Assembly (NCBI RefSeq): GCF_029714945.1
Contig: NZ_CP121634.1
Span: forward strand, 5,539,001-5,603,000
Direction of reading: 5' to 3'
From: Bradyrhizobium sp. CIAT3101
GTDB lineage: Bacteria > Pseudomonadota > Alphaproteobacteria > Rhizobiales > Xanthobacteraceae
Length of the DNA: 64,000 bases
Both the position numbers and the translations under genes were made by a program. Each line of letters opens with the position of its first letter. Positions within the stretch are counted from its first letter, which is position 1. Below, piece by piece: positions 4,600 to 21,571 of this stretch. Below the pieces are notes generated by a model, which worked only from the letters and a program-made list of their open reading frames with translations, made no database searches and was not told the origin of the DNA.

Positions 4600-4627
4600 C
4601 TCGCTATATTTACTGGTATATATCGAT
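4600..4627. promoter_or_regulatory. ModE-like operator 1 (divergent promoter region)
   Basis: Half-site CTCGCTATATT, spacer TACTGG, half-site TATATATCGAT. This agrees closely with the ModE box as I remember it: ATCGNTATATA, six bases, then TATATAACGAT. It lies 37 bases upstream of the cysteine-rich gene on the minus strand and 115 bases upstream of the SMP-30-like gene on the plus strand, so it could control both. Confidence 0.75.
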
Positions 4628-4742
4628 TGCGGCAAGGCGGACCGGGGAGGAGCAAAAGGATCCGCCAGCTGCACGCGACAAAACGGCCGACAAAGCTCGC
4701 CTCTGAAGAATAGTCCCTTCTTATTCGTCAGGAATCGCAATC

Positions 4743-5747
4743 ATGAAAAAATACGACAATGCCTTGCGTTCGCGCAGGCAGGGAGAAACGCTCACGACCG
4801 GTCGCACGCTCGGTGCGGCCGTCGCTATCCTCGCATCCAGCGTATTCCGCGCAGGCCTTGCCCAGGCACAAAGCGCGGCAGTCACCCTGCCCGAAAAGAG
4901 CTTTCCGGAAAGCGTGTCATCGACCAGCGACGGCGCGCTCTATGTCGGCAGCTTCAATCATGGCGGCGTGACGCGGGTGACCCCGACCGGCAAGGTCGAC
5001 GCCTTCATCTCGCCCGGCGCCAGCGGCAGCCGCTCCACCCTCGGAGTGCTTGCCGACGAGAAGAGCGGCACACTTTACGTCTGCTCGAACGACCTCTCCG
5101 GCATGGGCGTTCCGAGTCCCGGCAGCGGCAAAGGCGCGTTCCTCAAGACGTTCGACCTGCGTACCGGCGCGCCCAAGGGCAGCTTCGCGCTCAAGGACAA
5201 CAAATCCTTCTGCAACGACATCGCGATCGGCAGCGACGGAACGGCCTACATCAGCGACTCCTTCGCGCCTTACGTCTATAGCCTCAAGTCCGGCGCGACT
5301 GCGCTCGAGGTCTGGGCAACGGATCCGGCGCTGGCGCCGGCCAAGGACGGCGTCGGCCTCGACGGCATTGCCGTCGGTTCCGACGGCAATCTCTATGTGA
5401 CGACCTTCATCCCTGGAAAATTGTTCCGGATCGCGGTCAAGGACGGCAAGGCCGGCGCCATCACCGAGCTGAAGCCATCAAGCACGCTCGACCATGCCGA
5501 TGCGCTGCGCGCATTCGGCAATGGCTTCCTGCTGATCGAGGGCGCCGGCCGGCTCGACAAGATCACGGTGAGCGGCGACGCGGCACAGGTGGAGGTGATC
5601 AAGGACGGCCTCGCCGAGCCGGTTTCGGTCACCCAGGTCGGTGACACCGGATGGGTCGCGGAGGGCAAGCTGTCCTACGTCATCGGCGAGAACAAGAGCA
5701 AGGATCCCGGCCCGTTCACGCTCAAGCCGATCGCATTGCCGAAGTAG
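4743..5747 (+). CDS. Secreted SMP-30/gluconolactonase-like beta-propeller protein
   Basis: This 334-residue protein has a basic N terminus and a hydrophobic stretch ending near AQAQS (about residue 43), consistent with export. The rest is repeated propeller blades with SDGALYVGSF, SDGTAYISDS and SDGNLYVTTF, typical of the SMP-30/NHL-like fold. Candidate metal ligands are acidic residues in the blade loops, such as NDIAIGSDG. Possible roles are lactone hydrolysis or a non-enzymatic binding propeller; the sequence does not decide. It is transcribed divergently from the ModA-like cluster across ModE-like operator 1 and is followed by a 12-bp hairpin. Confidence 0.75.
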   Translation: MKKYDNALRSRRQGETLTTGRTLGAAVAILASSVFRAGLAQAQSAAVTLPEKSFPESVSSTSDGALYVGSFNHGGVTRVTPTGKVDAFISPGASGSRSTLGVLADEKSGTLYVCSNDLSGMGVPSPGSGKGAFLKTFDLRTGAPKGSFALKDNKSFCNDIAIGSDGTAYISDSFAPYVYSLKSGATALEVWATDPALAPAKDGVGLDGIAVGSDGNLYVTTFIPGKLFRIAVKDGKAGAITELKPSSTLDHADALRAFGNGFLLIEGAGRLDKITVSGDAAQVEVIKDGLAEPVSVTQVGDTGWVAEGKLSYVIGENKSKDPGPFTLKPIALPK

Positions 5748-5756
5748 CGCATTACC

Positions 5757-5790
5757 GAACGCGCAGCGCAGCAAATCGCGCTGCGCGTTC
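5757..5790 (+). terminator. Hairpin after the SMP-30-like gene
   Basis: A perfect 12-bp inverted repeat (GAACGCGCAGCG at 5757-5768 with its complement at 5779-5790) and a 10-base loop begins 9 bases after the stop codon. No clear T run follows, so it is a terminator-like hairpin rather than a canonical intrinsic terminator. Confidence 0.6.
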
Positions 5791-5804
5791 ATACCGCGCG
5801 ACAG

Positions 5805-5832
5805 CACGCCATATTTGATCGGATATAGCGTT
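5805..5832. promoter_or_regulatory. ModE-like operator 2 (upstream of aldehyde dehydrogenase + DUF779)
   Basis: Half-site CACGCCATATT, spacer TGATCG, half-site GATATAGCGTT. It has the same 11-6-11 geometry as the other sites. The left half deviates at one inner position. It lies 203 bases before the aldehyde dehydrogenase start, which implies a long leader. Confidence 0.65.
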
Positions 5833-5901
5833 GACGAACCATTCGGTCCGGCGCAGACTTCGCGTGGTTTCGCCGGGATGATCTGACATCTCCCCTCGTT
5901 G

Positions 5902-5922
5902 CCGGAGCGGCGAACGCTCCGG
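5902..5922 (+). terminator. Leader hairpin ahead of the aldehyde dehydrogenase (possible attenuator)
   Basis: CCGGAGCG at 5902-5909 pairs with CGCTCCGG at 5915-5922 around a GCGAA loop. A T-rich stretch (TTGGCTTGTTTT) follows. It sits between ModE-like operator 2 and the coding start, so it could end stray transcripts or attenuate the leader. Confidence 0.5.
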
Positions 5923-6035
5923 ATTGGCTTGTTTTGCGCTGCGTGCTCCGCCGCAATCGGAGCGCCTGTTCGACGACGCGCGAGACCGCAAGATCCAAGG
6001 CGCAAAGACGCCGATCAATCCACGGAGGAAATGCC

Positions 6036-7556
6036 ATGTTCCAGCAAGCGCTCGACCAGGTTTCGAAAACGCTCCTCATCCGCGAACGCTACGACAATTT
6101 CATCGGCGGCAAATGGGTCGCTCCGGTGGAAGGCAAGTACTTTGACAATCCGAGCCCGATCACCGGCAAGAAGCTCTGCTCGGTGCCCCGCTCCACCGCC
6201 GCCGACATCGAGCTGGCACTCGACGCCGCGCACAAGGCGAAGGAATCCTGGGGCAAGACCTCGGTGCAGGAGCGTTCGCGCATCCTGAACAAGATCGCCG
6301 ACAAGCTGGAGTCAAATCTCGACCTGCTGGCGCTGATCGAGACGTTCGACAACGGCAAGCCGATCCGCGAGACCACCCATGCCGACATGCCGCTGGTCGT
6401 CGACCACTGGCGCTATTTCGCCAGCGTCGTGCGCGCGCAGGAAGGCGGCATCTCCGAGATCGACCACGACACCGTCGCCTATCACTATCACGAGCCGCTC
6501 GGCGTCGTCGGCCAGATCATTCCCTGGAACTTCCCGATCCTGATGGCGACCTGGAAGCTCGCCCCTGCCCTTGCCGCCGGCAATTGCGTGGTGCTGAAGC
6601 CCGCCGAACAGACCCCGCTCGGCATCCTCGCCGTGATGGAGCTGATCGCGGACATCCTGCCGCCCGGCGTCATCAACGTCGTCAACGGGTTCGGCATCGA
6701 GGCCGGCAAGCCGCTGGCGCAGAACAAGCGGATCGCCAAGATCGCCTTCACCGGCGAGACCACGACGGGCCGCATGATCATGCAATACGCGTCCGACAAT
6801 CTGATTCCGGTGACGCTGGAGCTCGGCGGCAAGTCGCCGAACATCTTCTTCGCCGACGTCGCCGAGACCGACGACGATTTCCTCGACAAGGCGCTGGAGG
6901 GCTTTGCGATGTTCGCCCTCAACCAGGGCGAGGTCTGCACCTGTCCGAGCCGCGTGCTGGTGCAGGAATCGATCTACGACAAGTTCATGGAGAAGGCGGT
7001 CGCGCGGACCAAGAAGATCAAGCAGGGCCACCCGCTCGACGCTTCGACCATGATCGGCGCGCAAGCCTCGAACGACCAGCTCGAGAAGATCCTGTCCTAT
7101 CTCGATATTGGCAAGCAGGAAGGCGCAAAAGTATTGACCGGCGGCAAGCGGGCCAAAATGGAGGGTGAGCTCGCCGAAGGCTATTACGTCGAGCCCACGA
7201 TTTTCGAGGGCAACAACAAGATGCGCATCTTCCAGGAGGAGATCTTCGGACCGGTCGTGTCGGTCACGAAGTTCAAGAACGAGGAGGACGCGCTCGCGAT
7301 CGCCAACGACACACTCTATGGCCTCGGCGCCGGCGTATGGACCCGCAATGGCAACCGCGCCTATCGGTTCGGCCGCGCCATCCAGGCCGGCCGCGTCTGG
7401 ACCAATTGCTACCACGCCTACCCCGCGCATGCGGCGTTCGGCGGTTACAAGCAGTCAGGCATCGGGCGTGAGACCCACAAGATGATGCTGGACCACTACC
7501 AGCAGACCAAGAACGTCCTGGTCAGCTACTCGACCAAGGCCCTCGGCTTCTTCTGA
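6036..7556 (+). CDS. NAD-dependent aldehyde dehydrogenase, AldB/ExaC/AcoD type
   Basis: This 506-residue cytoplasmic enzyme oxidises short aldehydes, typically acetaldehyde, to acids with NAD+. It has the family hallmarks: oxyanion Asn165 in IIPWNF, cofactor Lys188 in VLKPAE, general base Glu262 in LELGGKSPN and nucleophile Cys301 in [10 protein letters not shown]. The CTC pair around the nucleophile is typical of the AldB/ExaC subgroup. The start is the ATG at 6036 after a strong GGAGGAA; the frame stays open upstream, but that extension lacks family similarity. It is followed by an intrinsic terminator and then a DUF779 gene, the usual genomic companion of this subgroup. Confidence 0.93.
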
Positions 7557-7569
7557 TTGTTCGCCGCCT

Positions 7570-7599
7570 GGCTCAGGTGCGGTTCATCGCACCTGAGCC
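7570..7599 (+). terminator. Intrinsic terminator between the aldehyde dehydrogenase and DUF779 genes
   Basis: A 12-bp perfect stem (GGCTCAGGTGCG and its complement) with a 6-base loop is followed by ACTTTTTCG. It begins 13 bases after the aldehyde dehydrogenase stop and ends 26 bases before the DUF779 start, so the downstream gene would be expressed by read-through or from its own promoter. Confidence 0.85.
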
Positions 7600-7625
7600 A
7601 CTTTTTCGTCGATAGGATTCGCACC

Positions 7626-8006
7626 ATGGTCAATCGGGTCGAGATCACGCCGAAGGCGGCCGAGATCGTCGCGCGCCTCAAGACCCAGCACGGCGCATTG
7701 ATGTTTCACCAGTCCGGCGGCTGCTGCGACGGCTCGGCCCCGATGTGCTATCCTGTCGGGGATTTCCGCGTCGGCCCCCAGGACGTGCTGCTCGGCAAGA
7801 TCGCCGATTGCGAGTTCTATATCGGTGCCGCCCAGTTCGAATATTGGCAGCACACCCAGCTCATCATCGACGTCGTGCCCGGCCGCGGCTCCGGCTTTTC
7901 GGCCGAGGCGCCGGAGGGCGTGCGGTTTCTCACCCGCAGCCGCGTCTTCACTGACGAGGAAGTGGCGGAGTTGGCAGCCGCTGGGCCACCGGCGCGGGCG
8001 GCGTGA
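7626..8006 (+). CDS. DUF779 family protein
   Basis: This 126-residue cytoplasmic protein has the conserved FHQSGGCCDGSAPMC segment (Cys33, Cys34, Cys41) and QFEYWQHTQLIIDVV. DUF779 genes typically follow AldB/ExaC-type aldehyde dehydrogenases, as here, and the cysteine cluster suggests metal or thiol chemistry; the molecular role is unknown. The start at ATG 7626 removes a non-conserved upstream extension. A strong terminator separates it from the dehydrogenase gene. Confidence 0.88.
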   Translation: MVNRVEITPKAAEIVARLKTQHGALMFHQSGGCCDGSAPMCYPVGDFRVGPQDVLLGKIADCEFYIGAAQFEYWQHTQLIIDVVPGRGSGFSAEAPEGVRFLTRSRVFTDEEVAELAAAGPPARAA

Positions 8007-8007
8007 A

Positions 8008-8271
8008 CTATCGAATGATTGTCGTCAGCGACGAGTAGCGCTTGTTCGGCTTGGCCTCGGCCGCCGAGAACTGCGCGAAGGCTTCGCTGACGCGGGTCGC
8101 CGGCGGCGTATCGCTGGCGAAGCGGAACTCCTTCGGCTTCGGCGCGTAGAAGCTGGCGCTGTAATAGGAATCGTCGAAGCGCGTCTCGCCGACGCCGAAC
8201 AATGCGTCGCAGACGAACAGGAGTGCGTAGACTCCCGCAATCGCCGCGACGATCTCCTTGAAAATTGACAT
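8008..8271 (-). CDS. Small hypothetical protein with an N-terminal membrane helix
   Basis: This 87-residue protein begins MSIFKEIVAAIAGVYALLFVCDALFG, one hydrophobic segment. A polar tail rich in Phe, Tyr and Lys follows. It looks like a membrane-anchored or exported small protein. I do not recognise a family with certainty. It is convergent with the DUF779 gene, one base apart. Start ATG 8271 was chosen over an upstream frame that would extend it by 43 residues without a membrane segment. Confidence 0.5.
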   Translation of the reverse strand: MSIFKEIVAAIAGVYALLFVCDALFGVGETRFDDSYYSASFYAPKPKEFRFASDTPPATRVSEAFAQFSAAEAKPNKRYSSLTTIIR

Positions 8272-8406
8272 GCGAAATGCCCCAACCTTTTGCGGTGAGG
8301 ATGCATGCCGGTTCCAAAGCCGAGGTTTAAGACCACGGCCTTCTTGTCCGCAGGGTTTGCCGCCCGTGATCGGGTTGCAGACAATTTTATCGATCTCCAA
8401 AAAAGA

Positions 8407-8439
8407 GAGCCCGCCTGATCGGGGGGATCAGGCGGGCTC
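8407..8439 (-). terminator. Intrinsic terminator of the minus-strand aldehyde dehydrogenase gene
   Basis: A 14-bp perfect stem (GAGCCCGCCTGATC and its complement) encloses a five-G loop. Read on the minus strand it is followed by TCTTTTTTGG, a classic intrinsic terminator just past the stop codon at 8463. Confidence 0.9.
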
Positions 8440-8462
8440 CAGGATTGGCCGCTCGGGAGGTA

Positions 8463-9950
8463 TCAGACGGCCAAATTCATCCAGACGGCCTTGGGCTCGG
8501 TGAAATTGTCGAGCGCTGCGGTGCCGTGCTCGCGGCCGAGGCCGGAGTCGCGCTCGCCGCCCCAGGGCAAGCGCACGTCGGTGTAGCCATAGGTATTCAT
8601 CCAGACCGTGCCGGCGCGTGCCCGCTTGGCAAAACGCTGCAGCTTGCCGACATCGCGGCTCCAGACGCCCGCGGCGAGGCTGTAGGCCGTGCCGTTAGCG
8701 ATCCGTAAAGCATCAGCCTCGTCCTTGAACTTGATGACGCTGACGACGGGGCCGAAGATTTCCTCTTGCGAGATCCGCATCTCGTGCGCGACATCGGCGA
8801 ACACCGCGGGGCTGATGAAATAGCCGCGCTCGCCGACCTTCTCACCGCCGGTGACGAGCCTCGCGCCTTCCCTCTGGCCGATATCGACATAGTCGAGGAT
8901 CGACTTCATCTGCTTCTCGGAGATGACCGGCCCGAGCGCCGTCTTGCGGTCGAGCGGGTCGCCCATTTTGATCGACTTCGCACGCGCGGCGAGGCGTTCG
9001 ACGACTTCGTCATACGCCTTCTCCTGCACCAGCACGCGGGAGCCGGCCGAGCAGACCTGGCCGGCATTGAAGAAGATGCCGGAGGCCGCAGCCTTCGACG
9101 CCGCTTCGAGATCGGCATCGTCGAAAATCACGTTGGCCGACTTGCCGCCGAGCTCGAGCGAGACGCGCTTGAAGTTGCTGGCCGCGCCCTTCATGATTCC
9201 GCGGCCCACGCCGGGCGAGCCGGTGAAGGTGACCTTGTCGACATCCGCGTGATTGACCAGCGCGTCACCGACGACGCGACCGGGACCGGTGACGACGTTG
9301 AAGACGCCCGCCGGCAAACCCGCTTCGAGCGCGAGCTCCGCGATACGCAGCGCCGACAGCGAGGTCAGCTCGGCCGGCTTCATCACGATGGTGCAGCCGC
9401 AGGCCAGCGCCGGTGCCAACTTCCACATGCCGATCATCAGCGGGAAATTCCAGGGAACGATCGCCGCGACCACGCCGACCGGCTCGCGCATGGTGTAGGT
9501 CAGGGCATCGTCGCGCACCGGCACGACATCGCCGCTGATCTTGTCGGCCCAGCCAGCGTAGTAGGTCAGCGTGTCGACGGCGGCCGGGAAATCCTGGCGC
9601 ATCGTCGCCGAGATCGGCTTGCCGGCATCGATCGATTCGAGCTCGATGATCTCGTCGGCGTTGCGCTTGAGCAGGTCGGCCCAGCGCATCAGGATCTGGC
9701 CACGCTCGGAGGCACGCATGGTGCGCCACGGGCCTTCGAACGCCCGGCGCGCAGCCGCCACCGCGATCTCGACATCGGCCTCGCCGCCCTCGGCGATGGT
9801 GGCGATGACCTGCCCGGTGGCGGGATTGAGGGATTTGAAGGTGCGGCCGGAGCTCGCGGGCACGCGGCGGCCGTCGATGAGCAGATGCTGCGGCCGGGCC
9901 ATGAACTCGGTGGCCGGCGAGTGCGCAAAGTCATATGCAACAGACATCAT
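8463..9950 (-). CDS. NAD-dependent aldehyde dehydrogenase (betaine/aryl aldehyde dehydrogenase-like)
   Basis: This 495-residue enzyme has a complete active site: Asn168 in IVPWNFP, Lys191 in VMKPAE, Glu266 in LELGGKSAN and Cys300 in FNAGQVCSAGSR. It is closest in pattern to the broad ALDH2/betaine-aldehyde group, so the substrate is not fixed by sequence. The minus-strand start at 9950 follows AGGAGGAAAT; a second ATG directly follows. It is divergent from the ModE-HTH/PBP regulator gene, which probably controls it. A perfect palindrome at 9963-9976 lies just upstream, and its own terminator follows the stop. Confidence 0.93.
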   Translation of the reverse strand: MMSVAYDFAHSPATEFMARPQHLLIDGRRVPASSGRTFKSLNPATGQVIATIAEGGEADVEIAVAAARRAFEGPWRTMRASERGQILMRWADLLKRNADEIIELESIDAGKPISATMRQDFPAAVDTLTYYAGWADKISGDVVPVRDDALTYTMREPVGVVAAIVPWNFPLMIGMWKLAPALACGCTIVMKPAELTSLSALRIAELALEAGLPAGVFNVVTGPGRVVGDALVNHADVDKVTFTGSPGVGRGIMKGAASNFKRVSLELGGKSANVIFDDADLEAASKAAASGIFFNAGQVCSAGSRVLVQEKAYDEVVERLAARAKSIKMGDPLDRKTALGPVISEKQMKSILDYVDIGQREGARLVTGGEKVGERGYFISPAVFADVAHEMRISQEEIFGPVVSVIKFKDEADALRIANGTAYSLAAGVWSRDVGKLQRFAKRARAGTVWMNTYGYTDVRLPWGGERDSGLGREHGTAALDNFTEPKAVWMNLAV

Positions 9951-9962
9951 ATTTCCTCCTGT

Positions 9963-9976
9963 TCTGGTATACCAGA
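9963..9976. promoter_or_regulatory. 14-bp perfect palindrome, possible operator
   Basis: TCTGGTATACCAGA lies 12 bases upstream of the aldehyde dehydrogenase start, in the divergent promoter region. The core TGGTATACCA resembles operators of GntR-family regulators, but no GntR-FCD gene is adjacent. A related inverted repeat lies before the porin gene at 39794-39813. Confidence 0.5.
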
Positions 9977-10032
9977 TTAGGCGCCCATTGGCTGGAGTAA
10001 ATATGATATGAAGTGCAATTGGACACCCAATA

Positions 10033-10050
10033 TATGAAGTCTATTTCATA
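10033..10050. promoter_or_regulatory. Inverted repeat in front of the ModE-HTH/PBP regulator
   Basis: TATGAA and TTCATA are separated by six bases (GTCTAT), the same spacing as the ModE-like boxes but with a different half-site. An extra direct copy of ATATGAAGT starts at 10006. The site ends 9 bases before the start codon, suggesting autoregulation. Confidence 0.45.
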
Positions 10051-10059
10051 AGGAAAGCG

Positions 10060-11142
10060 ATGCTTCAGATCGAGATCGAGGCCGTCTGGCGGTTTCGCCA
10101 CGAGGGCAGCCCACGCACCGCCGTCGTCATGCTGGGCGTGCTCAACGAGATCCGGAAGACCGGGAAGATCACGAGCGCAGCCAGCGACGCACAGCTGTCC
10201 TACCGGCACGTCTGGAATCTGATCGAGCAATGGTCGGAGTTCTTCGGAACGCCTCTCGTCGAAACCCAGCGCGGCAAGGGCTCGAAGCTCACGCCATTCG
10301 GCGAGCGGCTGGTGTGGGCCGGCGAGCGCATGCAAGCGCGGCTCGGGCCGCAGCTTGAAAACCTGGCGCAGGAGCTGGCGAGCGAGATCAAGCCATTCCT
10401 CGAGCAGCGGCCCTCCGTGATCCGCGTCCATGCGAGCCACGGCTTTGCAGTTGCAAAGCTGCGCGAGTTCCTCGACCGGGAGCCCGGCATCGGCGTCGAC
10501 CTGCGCTATGTCAGCAACCAGCATTCGCTGGTCTCGCTGGCGCAGGGCGCTTGCGATCTCTCCGGCCTGCATCTGCCGCGCGGCGAGCTGCGCGCCCAGG
10601 GCATCAACGCGGCCCGCGAATGGCTCGATCCGCGCGAGGACCGCGTCATCAATTTCGTCACGCGCGAGATGGGGCTGATGGTCGCGCGCGGCAATCCGCT
10701 ACGGATCGCCTCGCTGCGCGATTTGACCGGACCGAAGGTGCGCTTCGTCAACCGCGATCACGATTCCGGCACACGTCTCCTATTCGACCGCCTGCTCGCC
10801 GTGCAAGGGATCGACCAGGGCAGGATCAACGGCGCGCAGCAGATCGAGTTCACCCATGCGGCGGTCGCAGCCTACGTCGCCAGCGGCATGGCCGATGTGA
10901 CCTTCGGCGTCGAGGCCGCCGCCCGCCAGTTCGGTCTCGATTTCATCCGGGTTCTCACCGAAGACTATTTCTTCGTCTGCAAACGCGCCTTCCTGGAGAC
11001 GGAGCCGATGCGACGCATCCTCGACATCATCCGCAGTCACGATTTCCAGGCGGCGGTCGCTGCCCTGCCCGGTTACACCCTGTCCGATACGGGCGAGGTC
11101 TCCGGCGTAAAAGCCTTCCTGGAGATGCACTCCGCACGCTGA
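10060..11142 (+). CDS. Transcriptional regulator: ModE-type winged helix fused to a periplasmic-binding-protein-like domain
   Basis: This 360-residue cytoplasmic regulator starts with a ModE/LysR-type winged helix at about residues 15-95. SYRHVWNLIEQWSEFFGTPLVE and GKGSKLTPFGERL align with the ModE pattern SYKxAWD...LTxxGxxL. After a linker, residues 110-355 form a PBP-like domain (VIRVHASHGFAVAKLREFLD, FVNRDHDSGTRLLFDRLL), similar to the PBP_like domain seen in molybdenum-related regulators. The TOBE domain of true ModE is absent, so the fused PBP-like domain is the likely sensor. It is divergent from an aldehyde dehydrogenase and followed by ModE-like operator 3. The ligand is unknown; molybdate or a related oxyanion is the working guess. 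Confidence 0.85.
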   Translation: MLQIEIEAVWRFRHEGSPRTAVVMLGVLNEIRKTGKITSAASDAQLSYRHVWNLIEQWSEFFGTPLVETQRGKGSKLTPFGERLVWAGERMQARLGPQLENLAQELASEIKPFLEQRPSVIRVHASHGFAVAKLREFLDREPGIGVDLRYVSNQHSLVSLAQGACDLSGLHLPRGELRAQGINAAREWLDPREDRVINFVTREMGLMVARGNPLRIASLRDLTGPKVRFVNRDHDSGTRLLFDRLLAVQGIDQGRINGAQQIEFTHAAVAAYVASGMADVTFGVEAAARQFGLDFIRVLTEDYFFVCKRAFLETEPMRRILDIIRSHDFQAAVAALPGYTLSDTGEVSGVKAFLEMHSAR

Positions 11143-11204: not shown

Positions 11205-11232
11205 TACGTTATATCAATTCGAATATAGCGGA
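11205..11232. promoter_or_regulatory. ModE-like operator 3
   Basis: Half-site TACGTTATATC, spacer AATTCG, half-site AATATAGCGGA. Both halves match the core of the ModE box. It ends 36 bases before the amidotransferase start codon, nearly the same distance as at operators 1 and 5. Confidence 0.75.
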
Positions 11233-11268
11233 TGCCGTCGAAAGACCCAGCACAACAAGGTTTTGTGG

Positions 11269-12015
11269 ATGTTCCAACGCCGCCGATCTGCCGTCGCGCT
11301 CCGTCATGTGGCCTTCGAGGATCTCGGCCTGCTTGCACCGATCATGGAACGCGAGGGCTGGAACGTCTCGTTCTGCGAAGCGCCGGTCGACGATCTCAGC
11401 CACCCCTCGATCGGGGATGCGGACCTCCTGATCGTGCTCGGCGGCCCGATCGGCGTCTACGAGACCGACAGCTATCCGTTTCTCACAAGGGAAATTGACC
11501 TGCTGGAGCGCCGCCTTGCCCAAGGCCTGCCGACGCTCGGCATTTGCCTCGGCGCACAGCTGATGGCGAAGGCGCTCGGGGCCCGCGTCCATGCCGGTCA
11601 TGTGAAGGAGATCGGCTGGGGATCGCTGACATTATCGGACACCGGCCGCGCCTCCTGCCTGACGCCGCTGGCGGAGGGCACACCGGTTCTGCACTGGCAC
11701 GGCGACACCTTCGATCTTCCCGATCATGCAGCGAGACTCGCCTCGAACGAAAACTACGAGAACCAGGCGTTCGAGTTCGGAAACAATGCGCTCGCACTGC
11801 AGTTTCACCTCGAAGCCGATCCACGGCAGCTCGAGGAATGGTACGTCGGCCATGCCGTCGAGCTCGCCTCCGCGAGGATTTCGGTGCCGGAGCTTCGGGC
11901 AAGGACGGCAGAATATTCAACGATCGTCGCACAACAGGCCGATCGCATCTTCACGAGTTGGTTGAACCAGCTCGCGCACAAGGACGCTGCAAGCAGAACC
12001 GCACAAGCAAGGTAA
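11269..12015 (+). CDS. Class I glutamine amidotransferase (GATase1) family protein
   Basis: This 248-residue protein has the triad of the GMP-synthase-like glutaminase fold: Cys93 in GICLGAQL, His180 and Glu182 in LQFHLE. It resembles stand-alone GATase1 proteins that deamidate glutamine or act as gamma-glutamyl hydrolases. No synthase partner is adjacent. The ATG at 11269 was chosen over a TTG two codons earlier. The aldehyde dehydrogenase starts 6 bases after its stop. With that gene and the methyltransferase it forms a unit under ModE-like operator 3. A role in hydrolysing a gamma-glutamyl aldehyde or acid intermediate is possible but inferred. Confidence 0.85.
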   Translation: MFQRRRSAVALRHVAFEDLGLLAPIMEREGWNVSFCEAPVDDLSHPSIGDADLLIVLGGPIGVYETDSYPFLTREIDLLERRLAQGLPTLGICLGAQLMAKALGARVHAGHVKEIGWGSLTLSDTGRASCLTPLAEGTPVLHWHGDTFDLPDHAARLASNENYENQAFEFGNNALALQFHLEADPRQLEEWYVGHAVELASARISVPELRARTAEYSTIVAQQADRIFTSWLNQLAHKDAASRTAQAR

Positions 12016-12021: not shown

Positions 12022-13449
12022 ATGGCGGAATATCCCCTGATCGAACTCTACATCGATGGACAATGGAAGCGCGCAAGCGGCCAGCCGATCATCAATCCCG
12101 CCGATGAAAGCGTGCTCGGCACCGTCCCGACCGCGACCAGAGCCGACCTCGACGACGCGCTCGCCGCCGCCGAGAAAGGCTTCAAGATCTGGCGCAACAC
12201 CGCGCCGGCGAAACGCGCGCAGATCATCCTGAAGGCCGCCGCCCTCATCCGCGAGCGCGTCGATGTGATGGCCGCCGCGATGACGCTCGAACAGGGCAAG
12301 CCGATCGAGCAGGCAAGGCTCGAAATCCTGCGTGGCTGCGACATCATCGAGTGGGATGCGACCGAAGGCCTGCGGCTCTACGGCCGCATCATCCCCAGTG
12401 AGCCCGGCATGCGCCACACCGTGCTGCGCCAGCCGATCGGCCCGGTCGCTGCGTTCTCGCCGTGGAATTTCCCGATGAGCTCGCCGGCCCGAAAGGTCGC
12501 CGGCGCCCTCTCCGCCGGCTGCTCGATCATCCTGAAGGCCTCGGAGGAAACCCCGGCCGGCGCATTCCAGCTGGTGCGCGCCTTCCATGATGCGGGCCTG
12601 CCCCCCGGTGTGCTCAACCTGGTGTTCGGCAATCCCGCGGAAATCTCCGACTACCTCATCCCGCAGTCGCGTATCCGCCTCGTCACTTTCACCGGCTCGA
12701 TCCCCGTCGGCAAGCATCTCGCCGAGATGGCCGGCCGGCACATGAAGCCCGCGATCATGGAGCTCGGCGGCCACGCACCGGTGATCGTCTGCGACGACGT
12801 CGACCCGGCCGCGACTGCGGCTGCGTCCGTGATCGGCAAGTCGCGCAACGCCGGCCAGGTCTGCGTCTCGCCGACGCGCTTCTTCGTGCAGGAAAAGATC
12901 TACGAGCAGTTCGCGCAATCCTTTGCAGAGCGCGCCAGCCAGCTCAAGGTCGGCAACGGCCTCGATCCTTCGACGCAGCTCGGGCCGCTCGCCAATGCGC
13001 GCCGCATCGACGCGATGGAGACGCTGGTCAGCGATGCCAGGGACAAGGGCGCGCGCGTGCTCGCCGGCGGGCAGCGCATCGGCAATCGCGGCTATTTCTT
13101 CCCGCTCACGGTGATCGCCGACCTGCCCGACGATGCCCGCGCCATGAACGAGGAGCCGTTCGGGCCGCTTGCACTGGTCAATCCGGTGAAGACGCTGGAC
13201 GAGGCGATCGAAAAGGCCAACGCCCTTCCCTATGGTCTTGCCGCCTACGCCTTCACGAAGTCGGCCGGCAATGCCGAACGCCTCGCCGAAAGCGTTGAGG
13301 TCGGCAACCTCTCCATCAACCATTTCGTCGCCTCGGTCGCGGAGACCCCGTTCGGCGGCGTCAAGGACAGCGGCTACGGCCGCGAGGGTGGCACCGAGGG
13401 CCTGCAGTGCTACACCGTCGTCAAGAACGTGTCGCACAAGACGTTGTAG
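12022..13449 (+). CDS. NAD(P)-dependent aldehyde dehydrogenase, succinate-semialdehyde dehydrogenase-like
   Basis: This 475-residue enzyme of the GabD-like clade has Asn149 in FSPWNFP, Lys172 in ILKASEE, Glu247 in MELGGHAPV and Cys281 in NAGQVCVSPTRF. The N-terminal LYIDGQW and the PTRF following the nucleophile are typical of semialdehyde dehydrogenases. Substrate is not proven. It lies 6 bases after the amidotransferase and 8 bases before the methyltransferase. A semialdehyde produced from an amine or gamma-glutamyl precursor would fit its neighbours (inference). Confidence 0.92.
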   Translation: MAEYPLIELYIDGQWKRASGQPIINPADESVLGTVPTATRADLDDALAAAEKGFKIWRNTAPAKRAQIILKAAALIRERVDVMAAAMTLEQGKPIEQARLEILRGCDIIEWDATEGLRLYGRIIPSEPGMRHTVLRQPIGPVAAFSPWNFPMSSPARKVAGALSAGCSIILKASEETPAGAFQLVRAFHDAGLPPGVLNLVFGNPAEISDYLIPQSRIRLVTFTGSIPVGKHLAEMAGRHMKPAIMELGGHAPVIVCDDVDPAATAAASVIGKSRNAGQVCVSPTRFFVQEKIYEQFAQSFAERASQLKVGNGLDPSTQLGPLANARRIDAMETLVSDARDKGARVLAGGQRIGNRGYFFPLTVIADLPDDARAMNEEPFGPLALVNPVKTLDEAIEKANALPYGLAAYAFTKSAGNAERLAESVEVGNLSINHFVASVAETPFGGVKDSGYGREGGTEGLQCYTVVKNVSHKTL

Positions 13450-14258: not shown

Positions 14259-14272
14259 CCCGGCGCGACAGG

Positions 14273-15052: not shown

Positions 15053-15461
15053 TCCTCGCGAACGCGACGTGCCCCGGACACACGCATGTCATTGCCGATT
15101 ATTATAGGCTTAAAATTTCTGCCTTGCCTGATCTTTGGTCAAGCGAAAAGAAGCGGCAACGCGCTGCTCTCCCGGCCCAGCTTTGCGGCAGAGCACAATG
15201 GCCCATCCCCCCATGATGGGGGATTGCTGGCTTGGCCGCCTCGTCTCTAGCATCCTGGCCATCGGGATCGCGTCACGACACGCGGTTCCGGTGGGGACAT
15301 CTCGACAGCAACGCGAGCCGATCGTCGCGCGCCAACTGACATTGGCGCGTGCAGGCGAAGTGTTGCCTGCGACTGTCCCGTCCGACCCAGATCTTCGCGC
15401 ACGGCAGCCCTGCGCGAAGCACCAACAGACCGACTGACAGACCGACCTGGAGACACCGATC
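15053..15461. promoter_or_regulatory. Divergent promoter region with a C-rich/G-rich inverted repeat at 15208-15222
   Basis: This 409-base stretch separates the LuxR regulator from the catabolic operon and holds no convincing gene. The clearest structure is CCCCCAT, one base, ATGGGGG at 15208-15222, a candidate operator for the LuxR protein. Near the regulator start the strand is AT-rich (TTATTATAGGCTTAAAATTT at about 15098-15117), which fits a promoter. I could not assign -35 and -10 boxes for the operon. Confidence 0.5.
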
Positions 15462-16694: not shown

Positions 16695-16720
16695 GCAGGC
16701 GATCAGACGAGGGCGTCGAG

Positions 16721-17269
16721 GTGAGGACATCCCGCATCGTTGGCTTCTGCGGCAACAGTTGGCGCCCGGCGAAGTCGCGCATTCTGGTCGAAGCCGTCGC
16801 CGCCGACCTTCAGGCGCAACATGGACTGAACACCACGGTCCTCGATCTCGTCGATGCCGGCTGCGGCATCGCCGGCTTCACCCGGACCGCACTCGATGAC
16901 AGCGCGCGCGCCGTCGTCGAGGCCATCGAGCAGGCCGACGGCCTCGTGATCGGGTGCCCGGTGTTCCAGGGATCCTATCCCGGATTGTTCAAGCACGTCT
17001 TCGACCTGATCGAACCCAGCGCGCTGCGCAACCGCCCGGTGCTGCTGACCGCCGTCGGCGGCGGCCTGCGCCACTCGCTGGTGGTCGAGCACCAGCTCCG
17101 CCCGCTGTTCGGCTTCTTCGAAGCCTGCACCGTTTCGACGGCGATCTACGCCAGCAGCGGCGAGATCGCGCCAGGCGAGCCGCTCGCACCAATGACGGCC
17201 GCGCGGATCGCCAACGCCGTCGAACAATTCGCCTCGCTTCTCAGCGGTCGTCAGGCGGCTGCCGCATGA
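16721..17269 (+). CDS. NADPH-dependent FMN reductase (flavodoxin-like fold)
   Basis: This protein of about 182 residues has the FMN_red signature GFCGNSWRPAKSR at its N terminus and VIGCPVFQGSYPGLFKHVFDLI with the FMN-contact loop. It probably supplies reduced FMN to the monooxygenase encoded just upstream. Start: GTG at 16721 gives the normal N terminus directly before the first beta strand. An ATG at 16667 would overlap the monooxygenase gene and add a non-conserved stretch, so the start is uncertain by up to 18 codons. Confidence 0.85.
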   Translation: MRTSRIVGFCGNSWRPAKSRILVEAVAADLQAQHGLNTTVLDLVDAGCGIAGFTRTALDDSARAVVEAIEQADGLVIGCPVFQGSYPGLFKHVFDLIEPSALRNRPVLLTAVGGGLRHSLVVEHQLRPLFGFFEACTVSTAIYASSGEIAPGEPLAPMTAARIANAVEQFASLLSGRQAAAA

Positions 17270-17311
17270 CCCACCAACGCCCGGCCCTTCCGACGTCAAC
17301 CGGAGACAACC

Positions 17312-18112
17312 ATGCTTGATACCCCCAGACCTTCGCCCGATCTCGCCGGCTTCTCGCGCGCGGACTATACGATCAACGGCGTGCGCACCGTCGTCCACAG
17401 CATCGGAAGCGGCCCGGCACTCGTGTTCCTGCACGGCACCGGCACCTTCACCGGCTTCGAGATGGCGCGCGTCTGGGCAAAGCGGCACACCGTCATCATC
17501 CCCTATCACGCGGGCTTCGGCGACTCCGGTGACGCCGAGACGATCGACACCGTCGAGGATCACGTCCTTCACTACATGGATCTGTTCGACAGGCTCGGCC
17601 TTAATCAATTCGACCTCGCCGGGTTCTCGCTCGGCGGATGGCTTGCCGCGGAGTTCGCGATCCGTCAGCCGCATCGGATCCGCAAGCTGGTGCTGGTTGC
17701 ACCCGCCGGTCTTGTGGTCGGAAGCGCGCCTGCACCGGGATTGTTCGAGATCGCGCCGCAAGAATTGCCCGCCTATCTCGCGCACGATCCGGCCGCGGCA
17801 CTCCGTTATTTCCCCAAGGCGCCCGACCCGGCTTTCGACGCCCGGCTCGGACGCGAGGTCACTGGCTTTGCCAAGCTGATCCGCAGCGAACCGCAGGGCA
17901 ATCCCAAGCTCGCGCACTGGCTGCATCGGATCGCGATGCCGACGCTCGTGCTGTGGGGATCCGCCGATCGTCTGCGTCCGACCGCCCAGGCAGAGGCCTG
18001 GAAAGCAGGACTCCCCGACGCACGCGTGGTGCTGGTGCCCGCGACCGGACATCTCGTGTTCGAGGAAACGCCGTCCTCCGCACACCGCGTCACCGACTTC
18101 CTCGCCGAATGA
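17312..18112 (+). CDS. Alpha/beta hydrolase (meta-cleavage hydrolase-like)
   Basis: This 266-residue hydrolase has an apparently complete triad: Ser106 in AGFSLGGW, Asp219 in WGSADRLRP and His247 in ATGHLVFEE. The oxyanion motif is FLHGTG near residue 40. It resembles hydrolases of aromatic catabolism, consistent with its place after a flavin monooxygenase and reductase, but esterase or lactonase activity is equally possible. It starts 42 bases after the reductase and ends 26 bases before the cupin. Confidence 0.87.
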   Translation: MLDTPRPSPDLAGFSRADYTINGVRTVVHSIGSGPALVFLHGTGTFTGFEMARVWAKRHTVIIPYHAGFGDSGDAETIDTVEDHVLHYMDLFDRLGLNQFDLAGFSLGGWLAAEFAIRQPHRIRKLVLVAPAGLVVGSAPAPGLFEIAPQELPAYLAHDPAAALRYFPKAPDPAFDARLGREVTGFAKLIRSEPQGNPKLAHWLHRIAMPTLVLWGSADRLRPTAQAEAWKAGLPDARVVLVPATGHLVFEETPSSAHRVTDFLAE

Positions 18113-18138
18113 TCCCGCACACACCAAAGGACAGCACC

Positions 18139-18582
18139 ATGATCGAGATGCCTCCGGGCGTAACCCCCGCCAAGGACGGTTTTGGCAACGTCGTCTGGAA
18201 CATTCTGGGCCAGACCTACACGCTGAAGCAGCATTCCGAAGCGTCGATGGCCTGGCATGCCGTTTTTCCGGACGGCACCTTCGTGCCGCCGCACATCCAT
18301 CCGACCCAGGATGAGTTCGTCTATGTGCTGAGCGGCCGCTACGACCTCTGGCTCGACGGCAAGGACTTTGTGGCCAAAGCCGGCGACCTCGTGCGCATGC
18401 CCAAGGGCGTCCCCCACGGCATCTTCAACAAATCGGGCGAAACCGCCACCAGCCTGTTCTGGGTCGCACCGACGCGGTCGCTCAAGGAGCTGTTCGAACG
18501 CATCCACAATCTCCCCGATCCGCAGGAGGTGGTGCGACGTGCCGCCGAGCACGAGGTGAATTTCCTGCCGCCGCCTGCCTGA
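18139..18582 (+). CDS. Single-domain cupin protein
   Basis: This 147-residue protein carries both cupin motifs: PPHIHPTQDEFVYVLSGRY gives metal ligands His52, His54 and Glu59, and GDLVRMPKGVPHGIFN gives His93. The 3-His/1-Glu set is intact, so it may be a metal-dependent dioxygenase or isomerase for the pathway. Quercetinase-like oxygenases share this pattern, but the similarity is too general to name a reaction. ATG 18139 is the start; a much longer frame upstream overlaps the hydrolase gene and is ruled out. Confidence 0.82.
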   Translation: MIEMPPGVTPAKDGFGNVVWNILGQTYTLKQHSEASMAWHAVFPDGTFVPPHIHPTQDEFVYVLSGRYDLWLDGKDFVAKAGDLVRMPKGVPHGIFNKSGETATSLFWVAPTRSLKELFERIHNLPDPQEVVRRAAEHEVNFLPPPA

Positions 18583-18622
18583 CGCTGCGCCGATTCCACC
18601 GACACGCAAACCGCGAGAACCG

Positions 18623-19912
18623 ATGATGACCACGCTGACAACGACTTGGACGACCATCTCCGAGAGCGACCGCCGTCGGATAGCCCGGTGGCAAAAAGGC
18701 ATGCTGGCGCTCGCCATCCTCTGCGAGATATTTCTAGCCGCGGACTGGTATGCCTTCGCGGCGGTACTGCCCTTCGTCTCCGAGAGCCTCAAGCTCAATC
18801 CCGCCGAGGCCGGACTTGCGCAAGGCATCTTTGCGCTGACTTACGGCATCGGCATGGTGGTGTGGTCGCCGGTCAGCCGGTCGATGACGGCGCGCAACAT
18901 GCTGCTGATCGGGCTTGCGGGCACCGGAATCGGCATGGTGCTTCAGGTGTTCGTGCAGAGTTACACGCAGCTCGTGATACTCCGGCTCGTGATCGGCTTC
19001 TTTGACGCCGGCATCTTCATCGGCAATATGAAGCTGATCTTCGGCTGGTTTCCGCAAAGACGGCGCGGCTCGGTGGTCGGCATCATCCTCGCTGCCTACA
19101 GCCTCGCCATCACCATGGATTTCGCGCTCGGCATCCCCCTGACGATCGCGACCGGTTGGCGGACCTTCTTCGCCGTGCTGGCCATCGGCACGCTGCTGGT
19201 CGCAGCCATCGATGCAGTCGTCGTCCGCAACAATCCGCGCGAGCTCGGCCTCGACGGTTTCACCTGGGGCAACGAAACACCGCAGCAGCACCTGCCGCTC
19301 GGCGAGATATTCCGCTCGAAATGGATCGCGGTCGGCGGCTTCGGCATCGTGGCCTGCACCTTCGCGATCGCCGGTACCGCCACCTGGGTGGTGCCGGCCT
19401 TCATCACCGTGCAGCATATGCCCCCGGAGGCCGGCGCAATCATCGGCACCGTCATGGGGCTGTCGCAGGTGCTGTTCCTGGTGATTGGCGGCTACATGTC
19501 CGATCGGCTCGGCAAGCCTTTCATGATCAAGCTCACCGCATGTCTCGCTTTCCTGACGGCGCTGATGTTCCTGTGGAGCGTGGTCACTCCGATGTCGTTT
19601 CCGATGCTGGTGGTGTTTGCAGCGCTCAGCGGCATCGCGCTGCTCGGCGGTGGCGCGATCTTCGCCCTGCTCAGCGAAAAATACTCCGACGCGCTGGCGC
19701 CGGCCGCGATCGGATACGCCGAGGTGTTCGGCATCTTCTCGGCTTTCGTGGCGCCCTGGATGATGGGTGCCATCATCAACGCCTCCGGGGGCTCGTTCAC
19801 CGGCGCCTTCATCGCCTTCGCGGTTGTCGAACTCATCATCGTGGGCCTCCTGGTGATCCTCGCCCGCGAGGACGTCAGTCAGGGTGCGGTGGTCGGAAGC
19901 CCCGCGGAGTAA
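18623..19912 (+). CDS. MFS transporter
   Basis: This 429-residue inner-membrane protein has about 12 predicted transmembrane helices. The features fit the major facilitator superfamily, including the loop FGWFPQRRRGSVVGIILAAY and the cytoplasmic GGYMSDRLGKPF between helices. It is the last gene of the catabolic operon, so it probably imports the substrate or exports a product. A GC-rich hairpin follows at 19927-19956. Confidence 0.88.
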   Translation: MMTTLTTTWTTISESDRRRIARWQKGMLALAILCEIFLAADWYAFAAVLPFVSESLKLNPAEAGLAQGIFALTYGIGMVVWSPVSRSMTARNMLLIGLAGTGIGMVLQVFVQSYTQLVILRLVIGFFDAGIFIGNMKLIFGWFPQRRRGSVVGIILAAYSLAITMDFALGIPLTIATGWRTFFAVLAIGTLLVAAIDAVVVRNNPRELGLDGFTWGNETPQQHLPLGEIFRSKWIAVGGFGIVACTFAIAGTATWVVPAFITVQHMPPEAGAIIGTVMGLSQVLFLVIGGYMSDRLGKPFMIKLTACLAFLTALMFLWSVVTPMSFPMLVVFAALSGIALLGGGAIFALLSEKYSDALAPAAIGYAEVFGIFSAFVAPWMMGAIINASGGSFTGAFIAFAVVELIIVGLLVILAREDVSQGAVVGSPAE

Positions 19913-19926
19913 GGCGCAGCCGTCTA

Positions 19927-19956
19927 CGAGGGCACGGGTTCGCGCCCGTGCCCTCG
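19927..19956 (+). terminator. Hairpin closing the catabolic operon
   Basis: CGAGGGCACGGG at 19927-19938 pairs perfectly with 19945-19956 around a six-base loop. It begins 14 bases after the MFS stop. The T run is weak. Confidence 0.7.
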
Positions 19957-20052
19957 ACAAAGGTCTATCTTCTGGGAAATCCGGCGCCTTCACCTTGTCC
20001 ACCGTGGGCAAGAGTGGCACTCTCTGTTTAGAGTCATTCAAGAGAGCCGGTC

Positions 20053-20427
20053 ATGTCGCGCGCGAGCGCCAAATCCCTTCCCCAGCTGAGCCTTCGCATC
20101 GACCTCGACGGCGAGGACCGGATCGGGCCCGGCAAGATCGAGCTTCTGGAGCAGATCCGCGAGCAAGGCTCGATCTCCGGGGCCGGCCGCGCCATGGACA
20201 TGTCCTACAAGCGCGCCTGGGATCTCGTCGACGAGATCAACCGGATCTGTGGACATCCCGCGGTCGAGCCGCAGGCCGGCGGCAAGAACGGCGGCGGCGC
20301 AATGCTGACTCCGTTCGGCGAAAAGCTCGTTGCGCGCTACCGCAAGATCGAGCGCGACGCCGCCCGCGCGGTGCACAAGGATCTGGAAGCGCTGAAGAGC
20401 GACATCGCCCGGTCCCGCAAGTCGTGA
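20053..20427 (+). CDS. Minimal ModE-type winged-helix regulator, no TOBE domain
   Basis: This 124-residue protein is essentially the DNA-binding half of ModE. RIDLDGEDRIGPGKIELLEQI, GSISGAGRAMDMSYKRAWDLVDEIN and GGKNGGGAMLTPFGEKLVARY line up with E. coli ModE as I remember it (SGSISQGAKDAGISYKSAWD, GGKGGGGAVLTRYGQRL). The C-terminal TOBE di-domain that binds molybdate is missing, so the protein must sense by another route or act constitutively. It lies amid the ModE-like boxes and 21 bases before the glutathione transferase gene. Prime candidate to bind those boxes. Confidence 0.88.
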   Translation: MSRASAKSLPQLSLRIDLDGEDRIGPGKIELLEQIREQGSISGAGRAMDMSYKRAWDLVDEINRICGHPAVEPQAGGKNGGGAMLTPFGEKLVARYRKIERDAARAVHKDLEALKSDIARSRKS

Positions 20428-20448
20428 ACCAAGGGTCGGGATCGCGCA

Positions 20449-21054
20449 ATGCTGCTGATCGGGGTCAATCGTTCACCGTTTACGCGACGCGTTGCGATCA
20501 CGCTCAATATTTACGGCGTTCCGTTTGAGCAGCACGCACTGTCCGGCTTCGGCGACCGCGCAGAGGTCAGGGCAAGTAATCCGCTCGGCCGCATTCCGGC
20601 GCTCGTTCTCGACAGCGGCGAGACGTTGATCGATAGCGACGCGATCATTGATCATCTCGATGAAGCCTACGGTGGCGACCAGCCGCTCACGCCGCGCCAC
20701 GGCACCGATCGCCGCGCCGTCTTGAAGGTCGCGGCCATGATGATGGGCGCGTGCGAAAAGTGCCTTCACGCGGCCTATGAGGGCAACCACCGTCCGCCGG
20801 ACAAGGTGCATCAGCCGTGGATCGACGACTGCATGGCCCAGGCTGCCAATGCGCTCAACGCGGTCGAAGCCATGATAGAGCCGAAGCAGCCGTATTTGTT
20901 GCTCGAGCGTCTCACCCAGGCCGATGTGACCGCCGTTGTCGCGGAACGGCTCGCGCGTGCACGCGGCATCGATACCGATGTTCTCATGCCCCGGCTGCGC
21001 GCACTGACGAGCAGGCTCGCCGAACAACCGCTCTTCCAGGTCAGCGAGCCCTAG
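20449..21054 (+). CDS. Glutathione S-transferase family protein
   Basis: This 201-residue cytosolic protein has a thioredoxin-fold N-terminal domain (about 1-80) starting LIGVNRSPFTRRVAITLNIYG, where Ser8 is in the position of the catalytic serine. NPLGRIPALVLDSGETLIDSDAIIDHLD is the glutathione-contact region. The rest is the helical C-terminal domain. The physiological role may be detoxification of reactive aldehydes or electrophiles, given the neighbours (inference). It follows the minimal ModE regulator closely and its stop codon overlaps the stop of the convergent gene. Confidence 0.87.
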   Translation: MLLIGVNRSPFTRRVAITLNIYGVPFEQHALSGFGDRAEVRASNPLGRIPALVLDSGETLIDSDAIIDHLDEAYGGDQPLTPRHGTDRRAVLKVAAMMMGACEKCLHAAYEGNHRPPDKVHQPWIDDCMAQAANALNAVEAMIEPKQPYLLLERLTQADVTAVVAERLARARGIDTDVLMPRLRALTSRLAEQPLFQVSEP

Positions 21055-21428
21055 TTCGGCCGCACCGACATGTCCGGCATCGGCTGCGTCAGCGCTTCGC
21101 CGAGCAGGCTCTGCTCGTCCTTGGGGATCGAGAAGCGGACCTTGAAGCCGTCCTCGGTCTGAAGCGTGATGATGCGCTGGGTCGTGTCGGTCGACTGTTC
21201 GATCGCCCAGGATGCCAGCGGATAGGCATAGCGCAGGCTCTGGTCGCCGTAGCGGGCTTTCAGGGCCGCCTCGAGCAGCCCGGGCAACGTCATGATGAGG
21301 GCACCGACCTGGTTGAGCGAGACGCTGACGGCTGCGGTACTCCCCGTCACGTCCTCGAAGCCCAGCGAGATCGCACCGCCGTCGGCCGCCACCTCGCAGG
21401 TCGTGAGCTGCCTCACCTTGATTTCCAT
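21051..21428 (-). CDS. Hypothetical protein under a ModE-like operator
   Basis: This 125-residue protein begins MEIKVRQLTTCEVAADGGA and contains YAYPLASWAIEQSTDTTQRIITLQTEDGFKVRFSIP, a beta-rich soluble protein with no signal peptide. I do not recognise a family. The ATG at 21428 lies only 19 bases from ModE-like operator 4, so its transcription is probably controlled by it. Its stop shares bases with the stop of the convergent glutathione transferase gene. A very long frame continues upstream on this strand but runs through the operators and the opposite aldehyde dehydrogenase. Confidence 0.7.
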   Translation of the reverse strand: MEIKVRQLTTCEVAADGGAISLGFEDVTGSTAAVSVSLNQVGALIMTLPGLLEAALKARYGDQSLRYAYPLASWAIEQSTDTTQRIITLQTEDGFKVRFSIPKDEQSLLGEALTQPMPDMSVRPN

Positions 21429-21447
21429 CGCCAGTCCCGGAACGCAG

Positions 21448-21475
21448 TTCGCTATATCCGTCACGATATATCGAT
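21448..21475. promoter_or_regulatory. ModE-like operator 4
   Basis: Half-site TTCGCTATATC, spacer CGTCAC, half-site GATATATCGAT. The best symmetric of the five sites. It lies immediately upstream of the minus-strand 125-residue gene. Confidence 0.78.
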
Positions 21476-21543
21476 ATGTCCACCCGCGTCCAGCCTGCTT
21501 TTCTGGATTTGATCGAACCGGCCGCCATGGCCCGTTCGGCCGG

Positions 21544-21571
21544 ATCGTGATATATAGTTCGATATAGCGAG
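21544..21571. promoter_or_regulatory. ModE-like operator 5
   Basis: Half-site ATCGTGATATA, spacer TAGTTC, half-site GATATAGCGAG. It ends 37 bases before the aldehyde dehydrogenase start at 21609. Together with operator 4 it makes a double site in one divergent promoter region, with 68 bases between them. Confidence 0.75.

Follow-up and report, generated by a model that had tools for sequence, protein, structure and literature searches.

Five clustered and conserved ModE boxes in Bradyrhizobium, three of them before aldehyde dehydrogenase units, likely read by a single-domain ModE protein

Five sites clustered within 17 kb of the genome of Bradyrhizobium sp. CIAT3101 (9.37 Mb in one contig, NZ_CP121634.1; the window analysed is the 64,000-nucleotide stretch from 5,539,001 to 5,603,000) are supported as ModE boxes, also called Mo-boxes (Mo, molybdenum), by their sequence and by their recurrence before orthologous genes. 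They most likely belong to a real, conserved ModE-box regulon, with aldehyde dehydrogenases as its main targets here and a single-domain ModE protein, hereafter short ModE, as its reader. We consider it probable, if far from certain, that short ModE binds these boxes and releases them on cofactor shortage, and that the aldehyde dehydrogenases replace molybdenum hydroxylases at that time. Regulator and operator are of known kinds. The set of targets is new as far as the open-licence literature shows, in which we found no description of a ModE-controlled aldehyde dehydrogenase regulon.

A preliminary description of this DNA had reported five palindromes and taken them for ModE boxes. All five 28-mers are present (boxes 1 to 5, Table 1). 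They are indeed dyads with a six-base spacer, albeit imperfect ones, their outer 8-base arms being complementary at 7, 7, 7, 7 and 6 of 8 positions. Against the E. coli ModE consensus ATCGNTATATA-N6-TATATANCGAT, as printed in a passage of PMC545781 (an extract of PMC2700814 gives the near-identical ATCGCTATATA-N6-TATATAACGAT), they match 14 to 18 of 20 fixed positions and take the first five ranks in the window, the next best place reaching 12, which upholds the identification. The exact pattern CGNNATAT-N8-ATATNNCG occurs five times in the whole genome, always inside the 17-kb stretch, against an expectation of 0.15 sites per genome computed from the dinucleotide composition of the window. 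In the genome-wide scan that had been proposed, the exact sites are thus not scattered. Allowing one mismatch adds eight genomic sites, whose arms are complementary at 5 to 7 of 8 positions, and a reversed control pattern has two sites at up to one mismatch. Long open frames span all eight additional sites, but they also cross the window's own boxes, so that this test does not separate the eight from the five.

Relatives have boxes before the orthologous genes as well, a point that the description had suggested checking. The counts refer to the named loci, i.e. the best 80 of 112 loci around orthologues of ModE-PBP, the other ModE-type protein of the window, and include only genes whose start was covered and whose upstream region was in view. 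The nearest of these loci are from Bradyrhizobium, and the ModE-PBP of Bradyrhizobium sp. CCGUVB4N is 99% identical. A box lies upstream of the small gene U126 in 22 of 22 cases (20 exact, two with one mismatch), of the glutamine amidotransferase gene in 17 of 20 (13 exact, four with one mismatch), of aldehyde dehydrogenase 4 in 9 of 9 (box 4 or 5; eight exact, one with one mismatch), of the SMP-30-like gene in 7 of 8 (five exact, two with one mismatch, one without) and of the M24 gene in 3 of 3 (one exact). For ExaC the box is exact in four of five loci (L097, L100, L105 and L126, not L165). The three amidotransferase genes without a direct box follow a U126 relative that itself has an exact box, and GabD, the second gene of the amidotransferase operon, lacks a separate box in 9 of 12 loci. 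Where boxes 4 and 5 are both exact their starts lie 94-97 bases apart in the loci compared, and the aligned leaders show, by eye, conserved half-sites and a spacer free to vary. Across the order U126 is present in 11 of 397 genomes; of the five outside the family, three have an exact box nearby and two have none within one mismatch. These counts replace a wider tally of 114 distinct sites, for which loci had been chosen around ModE-PBP or short ModE, partly by box position, and each site had been assigned to the longest open frame near it, sometimes antisense.

Two details of the preliminary description have to be amended. Three sites were said to lie 36-37 bases before start codons; this applies to boxes 3 and 5, and the remaining distances are 19, 115 (from the end of box 1, at 4627, to the SMP-30-like gene) and 203 bases, with start codons as assigned here, all ATG. 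Three aldehyde dehydrogenase units are boxed, as claimed, but the stretch holds a fourth aldehyde dehydrogenase gene, at 8463-9950, which is boxless.

Short ModE (20053-20427) rather than ModE-PBP is the likely binder of the boxes. Its recognition region resembles that of E. coli ModE (SYK.AWD, GGK.GGGA.LT), and it matches E. coli ModE (Protein Data Bank entry 1b9m) at E=3.6e-15 and the closest solved structure, 2ijl, which is named a molybdenum-binding transcriptional repressor, at E=4.5e-29. Pfam recognises HTH_1 only and no Mop/TOBE molybdate-binding domain in it, and the ends of the 15 aligned proteins fall at about the same place. Neither ModE-type protein of the window has a Pfam match to the molybdate-binding C-terminal domains of full-length ModE. 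The direct response to molybdate or another oxyanion that had been put forward finds no support in this anatomy, because short ModE lacks the domain for it. Searching the genome with short ModE yielded two hits at E<=1e-8, of which one is presumably ModE-PBP.

The distribution of the box points to the same protein. We scored 296 genomes of the family for the exact box, ModE-PBP and short ModE. Where short ModE is close (E of about 1e-37 or lower, a threshold chosen in this analysis), 46 of 59 genomes carry the box; where it is weaker (1e-11 to 1e-36), 52 of 107 do; and where there is none, a class that includes genomes with only a weak cross-hit, 30 of 130 do. Any short ModE versus none gives p=5e-10 (Fisher test) and, within the genus, 7 of 11 genomes with short ModE versus 1 of 16 without have the box (p=0.0025), p-values that overstate independence since the genomes are related to each other. 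The exception in the genus, G212, has an exact box and no short ModE, and the U126 relative there has a one-mismatch box. With a close short ModE the box is present in 22 of 24 genomes that have ModE-PBP and 24 of 35 that do not; with a weaker one in 6 of 7 and 46 of 100; without short ModE in 6 of 29 and 24 of 101. Hence the box tracks short ModE, and in genomes without short ModE the presence of ModE-PBP does not make a box more frequent.

Loci were compared as well. Among 100 ModE-PBP loci, less nine under 15 kb and with some genomes represented twice (e.g. L077, L098), an exact box occurs in 24 of the 33 with a short ModE in the stretch (25 of 33 at up to one mismatch; 47 exact boxes in 677 kb) and in 10 of the 58 without (16 of 58; 12 exact in 1198 kb). 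The corresponding figures for the 80 named loci are 21 of 30 versus 8 of 50. Twenty stretches around short ModE genes, taken mostly by rank, with G136 and G292 (and G236) from further down, contain an exact box in 10 cases and one at up to one mismatch in 19 (15 exact in 382 kb). When G112, G136 and G292 are set aside, as the places of their boxes were already known before these stretches were chosen, the counts are 7 of 17 and 16 of 17.

One might still propose that the five boxes are regulated by ModE-PBP (10060-11142), perhaps sensing molybdate or tungstate through its PBP domain; the preliminary description had left both ModE-type proteins as possible binders. ModE-PBP has a ModE-like winged helix (TIGR00637, E=4e-12) and is encoded in the middle of the cluster, and ten of the 58 loci just mentioned have the exact box with no short ModE in the stretch. 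Yet in seven of seven genomes searched among those ten a short ModE lies elsewhere, 72-80% identical, and the search across the family found it in G095 and G026, which are also among the ten. Short ModE is likewise present elsewhere in three further genomes whose ModE-PBP has no box nearby, and L101 is a boxless locus from a genome without short ModE. The wing of ModE-PBP reads RGKGSKLT where GGKNGGGAMLT stands in the other protein, and its own intergenic region, towards the divergent aldehyde dehydrogenase 2, contains no exact ModE box in any of 80 loci and a different dyad, TATGAA-N6-TTCATA, 9 bases 5' of its start codon. At the orthologous loci the arms of this dyad are exact with a spacer of 5-7 bases in 67 of 80 and a relaxed form is found in 76 of 80; AAATATGATAT is present in 74 of 80, and ModE-PBP and aldehyde dehydrogenase 2 are paired in all 80. 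The dyad, with its single genomic copy, is probably the operator of ModE-PBP. Given this distinct dyad, and the lack of a link to the box without short ModE, ModE-PBP was rejected as main binder, and we regard its control of the five boxes as quite unlikely. Of the two candidates, short ModE is the likelier binder.

Some further features of ModE-PBP may be added. The interval 9951-10059 is strongly conserved, with TATGAA-N6-TTCATA and GTAAATATGATAT, and by eye the start of aldehyde dehydrogenase 2 has fixed third codon positions. The PBP_like domain is similar to the C-terminal portion of a family of molybdopterin biosynthesis proteins (NF011068, E=1.5e-45, 155 bits, below the cut-off of 534), a hint that its ligand might be linked to molybdenum or tungsten. 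A search of the genome with ModE-PBP returned the two ModE-type proteins of the window and only two places matching the PBP part. Its predicted structure (mean predicted local distance difference test score, pLDDT, of 58) is too poor for a fold search.

The layout of the promoters suggests how the boxes could work. In 14 of 20 site-gene pairs of U126, TGGAC occurs 16-17 bases 5' of the TATAT belonging to the box (the spacing depends on the hexamer), and at box 5 a TGGCCC can be seen by eye 17 bases 5' of TATATA. With such a box occupied by a protein, the promoter would be blocked. Short ModE would sit on the boxes while the molybdenum cofactor suffices and keep the ExaC-DUF779, amidotransferase-GabD, U126 and aldehyde dehydrogenase 4-DUF2478 units off, and probably the SMP-30 and ModA/DipZ units too. 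Upon shortage of the cofactor it would leave the boxes, and aldehyde dehydrogenases that use nicotinamide adenine dinucleotide (NAD) and no molybdenum would replace the molybdenum hydroxylases, in parallel to the Mo-free nitrogenases that replace the Mo-nitrogenase in other bacteria.

That the signal would be the status of the molybdenum cofactor is suggested by analogy with Agrobacterium tumefaciens. Its ModE-S (Atu2564), studied by Hoffmann et al. in 2016, reportedly represses modABC through two Mo-boxes and follows cofactor status. Like short ModE, it is an alphaproteobacterial protein with a DNA-binding domain only, without molybdate-binding domain and with Mo-box operators; unlike there, the targets in Bradyrhizobium are aldehyde dehydrogenases, U126, the amidotransferase and SMP-30, and modABC is boxless. 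The E. coli-type ModE regulon shares the operator and its six-base spacer, but full-length ModE has molybdate-binding domains and the targets differ. A passage of PMC6925177 describes MopA and MopB of Rhodobacter capsulatus as repressing anfA, modABC and morAB through Mo-boxes. There, Mo-boxes keep a Mo-free enzyme silent as long as molybdate is available, as they are predicted to do here; MopA and MopB act with molybdate present, and the isoenzyme pair is nitrogenase there and aldehyde oxidation in Bradyrhizobium. Further, part of PMC7545826 reports that a P. putida modA mutant largely lost furfural oxidation and ascribes the residual trace to unspecific aldehyde dehydrogenases. The genome of CIAT3101 has 28 matches to MoCoBD_2, a domain of molybdenum hydroxylases, grouped into 19 genes, one of them with an inner stop. 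These 19 genes, the Mo-box control of anfA and the furfural result together lead to the reading of dehydrogenases released under cofactor scarcity.

Neighbours of the module in relatives agree with it. In locus L228 (genome G238) the module adjoins a nifH-type gene (TIGR01287, 461.3 bits), anfD (TIGR01861, 1069.5) and anfK (TIGR02931, 942.3), all above cut-off, and 174 bases separate the nifH-type gene from the end of a one-mismatch box upstream of it. L241 (G161) has a box 8 bases 5' of modA (TIGR01256, 152.3 bits, above cut-off). In CIAT3101 the ModA-like gene at 2752-3558 is located behind box 1. The earlier suggestion that Mo-independent enzymes are switched on when molybdenum is lacking fits these modA and Mo-free nitrogenase neighbours; the role itself is a prediction. 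The partners of short ModE in 39 loci, including stretches selected by box position, were DUF2478 (21), aldehyde dehydrogenases (15), the amidotransferase (10) and U126 (9), and short ModE stands beside a different aldehyde dehydrogenase in 7 of 10 further loci, plus L207, L212, L218 and L219. As a separate observation, L232 (2927-5454, G043) has a box about 300 bases 5' of a nifH-type gene; the gene after it weakly resembles YqeB (TIGR03309, below cut-off), and no nifDK was seen beside this nifH-type gene. In L047 and L049 a box lies 5' of a frame that we take, by eye, for a CoxE-type VWA protein, presumably of the maturation-factor type of molybdenum hydroxylases.

Could the boxes work in the opposite sense, with a ModE protein activating through them when molybdenum is plentiful and the aldehyde dehydrogenases acting alongside the molybdenum enzymes? 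E. coli ModE can activate some promoters, the ExaC and SMP-30 boxes are far enough from the start codon that they need not overlap a -10 element, and no common -35 was found for the aldehyde dehydrogenases. Against this, the boxes of U126, the amidotransferase and aldehyde dehydrogenase 4 are 19-37 bases from start codons, a likely place for a core promoter, and anf-type genes and modA neighbour the boxes or the module in relatives. Such genes are Mo-repressed through Mo-boxes in R. capsulatus, as far as the passage of PMC6925177 goes (anfA, modABC, morAB). Activation thus strikes us as unlikely, though it keeps some weight. Alternatively, the ModE sites might be real and serve molybdenum uptake and handling (the ModA-like, DipZ-like and DUF2478 proteins, TonB receptors), the aldehyde dehydrogenases acting on a metabolite of that process, such as a metallophore precursor. 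ModA-like genes occur within the module in L217 and L222. Boxes also precede genes of one cluster in L209, L210, L233, L240, L243 and L245, of which the L210 member is a TonB receptor (Pfam) and the L240 member is TonB-receptor-like (NCBIfam); this cluster may possibly take up molybdenum or metallophores. Yet three of the five boxes of the window precede aldehyde dehydrogenase units, ExaC belongs to an acetaldehyde dehydrogenase family, and no ABC-transporter membrane or ATPase gene is among the genes identified between 981 and 23650. We give this combination of uptake regulon and metabolite-specific dehydrogenases little credence.

Several observations weigh against repression by short ModE and release on cofactor shortage. 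The automatic test found no common -35 for the aldehyde dehydrogenases, and the -35-like element of the amidotransferase, found in 8 of 19 pairs, is weak and has a spacer one base shorter. In the four named loci with DUF2478, that gene never has a separate box. The classical ModE target is modABC; the genome's own copy (L248, identified by a modB above its profile cut-off and an adjoining modA read by eye) has no box within two mismatches. Short ModE itself scores 95.1 bits against TIGR00637, 3 bits below the cut-off of 98.5, and an exact box is absent from 13 of the 59 genomes whose short ModE is close; the relatedness of the genomes in that table counts here too. Of 30 box loci sampled regardless of their neighbours, a module relative is found within 1.5 kb in only 10, which leaves 20 without, so that many boxes of the family serve other genes or are there by chance. 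Finally, nine of the 10 further loci with short ModE lack a box within about 1.5 kb, one mismatch being allowed, and the neighbouring aldehyde dehydrogenase gene often starts outside the stretch; these neighbours are thus not established targets.

Pfam and NCBIfam profiles served to name the genes between 981 and 23650 (Table 1). The predicted structure of U126 has a mean pLDDT of 48, too poor for a fold search. DUF2478 comes up in a paper on Methanoperedens plasmids. About 9 kb past the last box, at 30257-32011, a MOSC and YiiM-like protein is fused to reductase domains for flavin adenine dinucleotide (FAD), NAD and 2Fe-2S; it is likely a molybdenum-cofactor enzyme.

Table 1. Boxes, genes and the second dyad in the window (positions within the window; box scores are matches to the 20 fixed positions of the consensus).
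Feature	Position	Strand	Remarks
DipZ-like protein	981..2738	-	PF17991 and PF08534; DsbD-like membrane part weak (PF02683, 20 bits, cut-off 27.1)
ModA-like solute-binding protein	2752..3558	-	PF13531; NF002917 E=9.5e-67, 224.9 bits, below cut-off 264
M24-family metallopeptidase-like protein	3599..4288	-	PF00557
ModE box 1	4600..4627		Minus-strand M24 peptidase/ModA/DipZ genes on one side, plus-strand SMP-30-like gene on the other; 18/20
SMP-30/gluconolactonase-like protein	4743..5747	+	PF08450
ModE box 2	5805..5832		203 bases 5' of ExaC-type aldehyde dehydrogenase; 14/20
Acetaldehyde dehydrogenase, ExaC type	6036..7556	+	NF050026, 947.6 bits, above cut-off 900
DUF779 protein	7626..8006	+	PF05610 E=1.5e-47 (scanned as 7557-8006)
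Aldehyde dehydrogenase 2	8463..9950	-	PF00171; divergent from ModE-PBP; without ModE box
Dyad TATGAA-N6-TTCATA	10033..10050		Probable ModE-PBP operator; single genomic copy
ModE-PBP	10060..11142	+	ModE-like winged helix and PBP_like domain; PF12727 E=1.6e-59
ModE box 3	11205..11232		36 bases 5' of glutamine amidotransferase-GabD operon (start 11269); 14/20
Class I glutamine amidotransferase	11269..12015	+	NF005458, 324.4 bits, above cut-off 250 (scanned as 11266-12015)
Aldehyde dehydrogenase 3 (GabD, succinate-semialdehyde dehydrogenase-like)	12022..13449	+	PF00171; TIGR01780, 422 bits, below cut-off
Short ModE	20053..20427	+	ModE-S type, DNA-binding domain only, 124 amino acids; TIGR00637 E=2e-27
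U126, small protein	21051..21428	-	No Pfam or NCBIfam match; 16 relatives aligned
ModE box 4	21448..21475		19 bases from ATG of U126 (minus); 17/20
ModE box 5	21544..21571		37 bases 5' of aldehyde dehydrogenase 4 (plus, start 21609); 17/20
Aldehyde dehydrogenase 4	21609..23018	+	PF00171 E=4.6e-158
DUF2478 protein	23090..23650	+	PF10649 E=1.8e-46; recurrent partner of short ModE

A more general reading, which we hold as possible but would not favour over its contrary, is that short ModE with U126 and DUF2478 forms a switch for cofactor sufficiency that swaps molybdenum hydroxylases for NAD-dependent aldehyde oxidation in the Bradyrhizobium family and in some other families of the order. Within this general switch, U126 or DUF2478 may relay cofactor status. 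It would be the aldehyde counterpart of the switch between Mo- and Fe-nitrogenases. If this is true, the clustering of several aldehyde dehydrogenases in the stretch would be explained, and the conserved and uncharacterised U126 and DUF2478 would become candidates for the missing sensing step. Short ModE proteins, which have no sensor domain, would gain a physiological output beyond molybdate uptake, and cells would hedge aldehyde oxidation, as well as nitrogen fixation, against molybdenum shortage.

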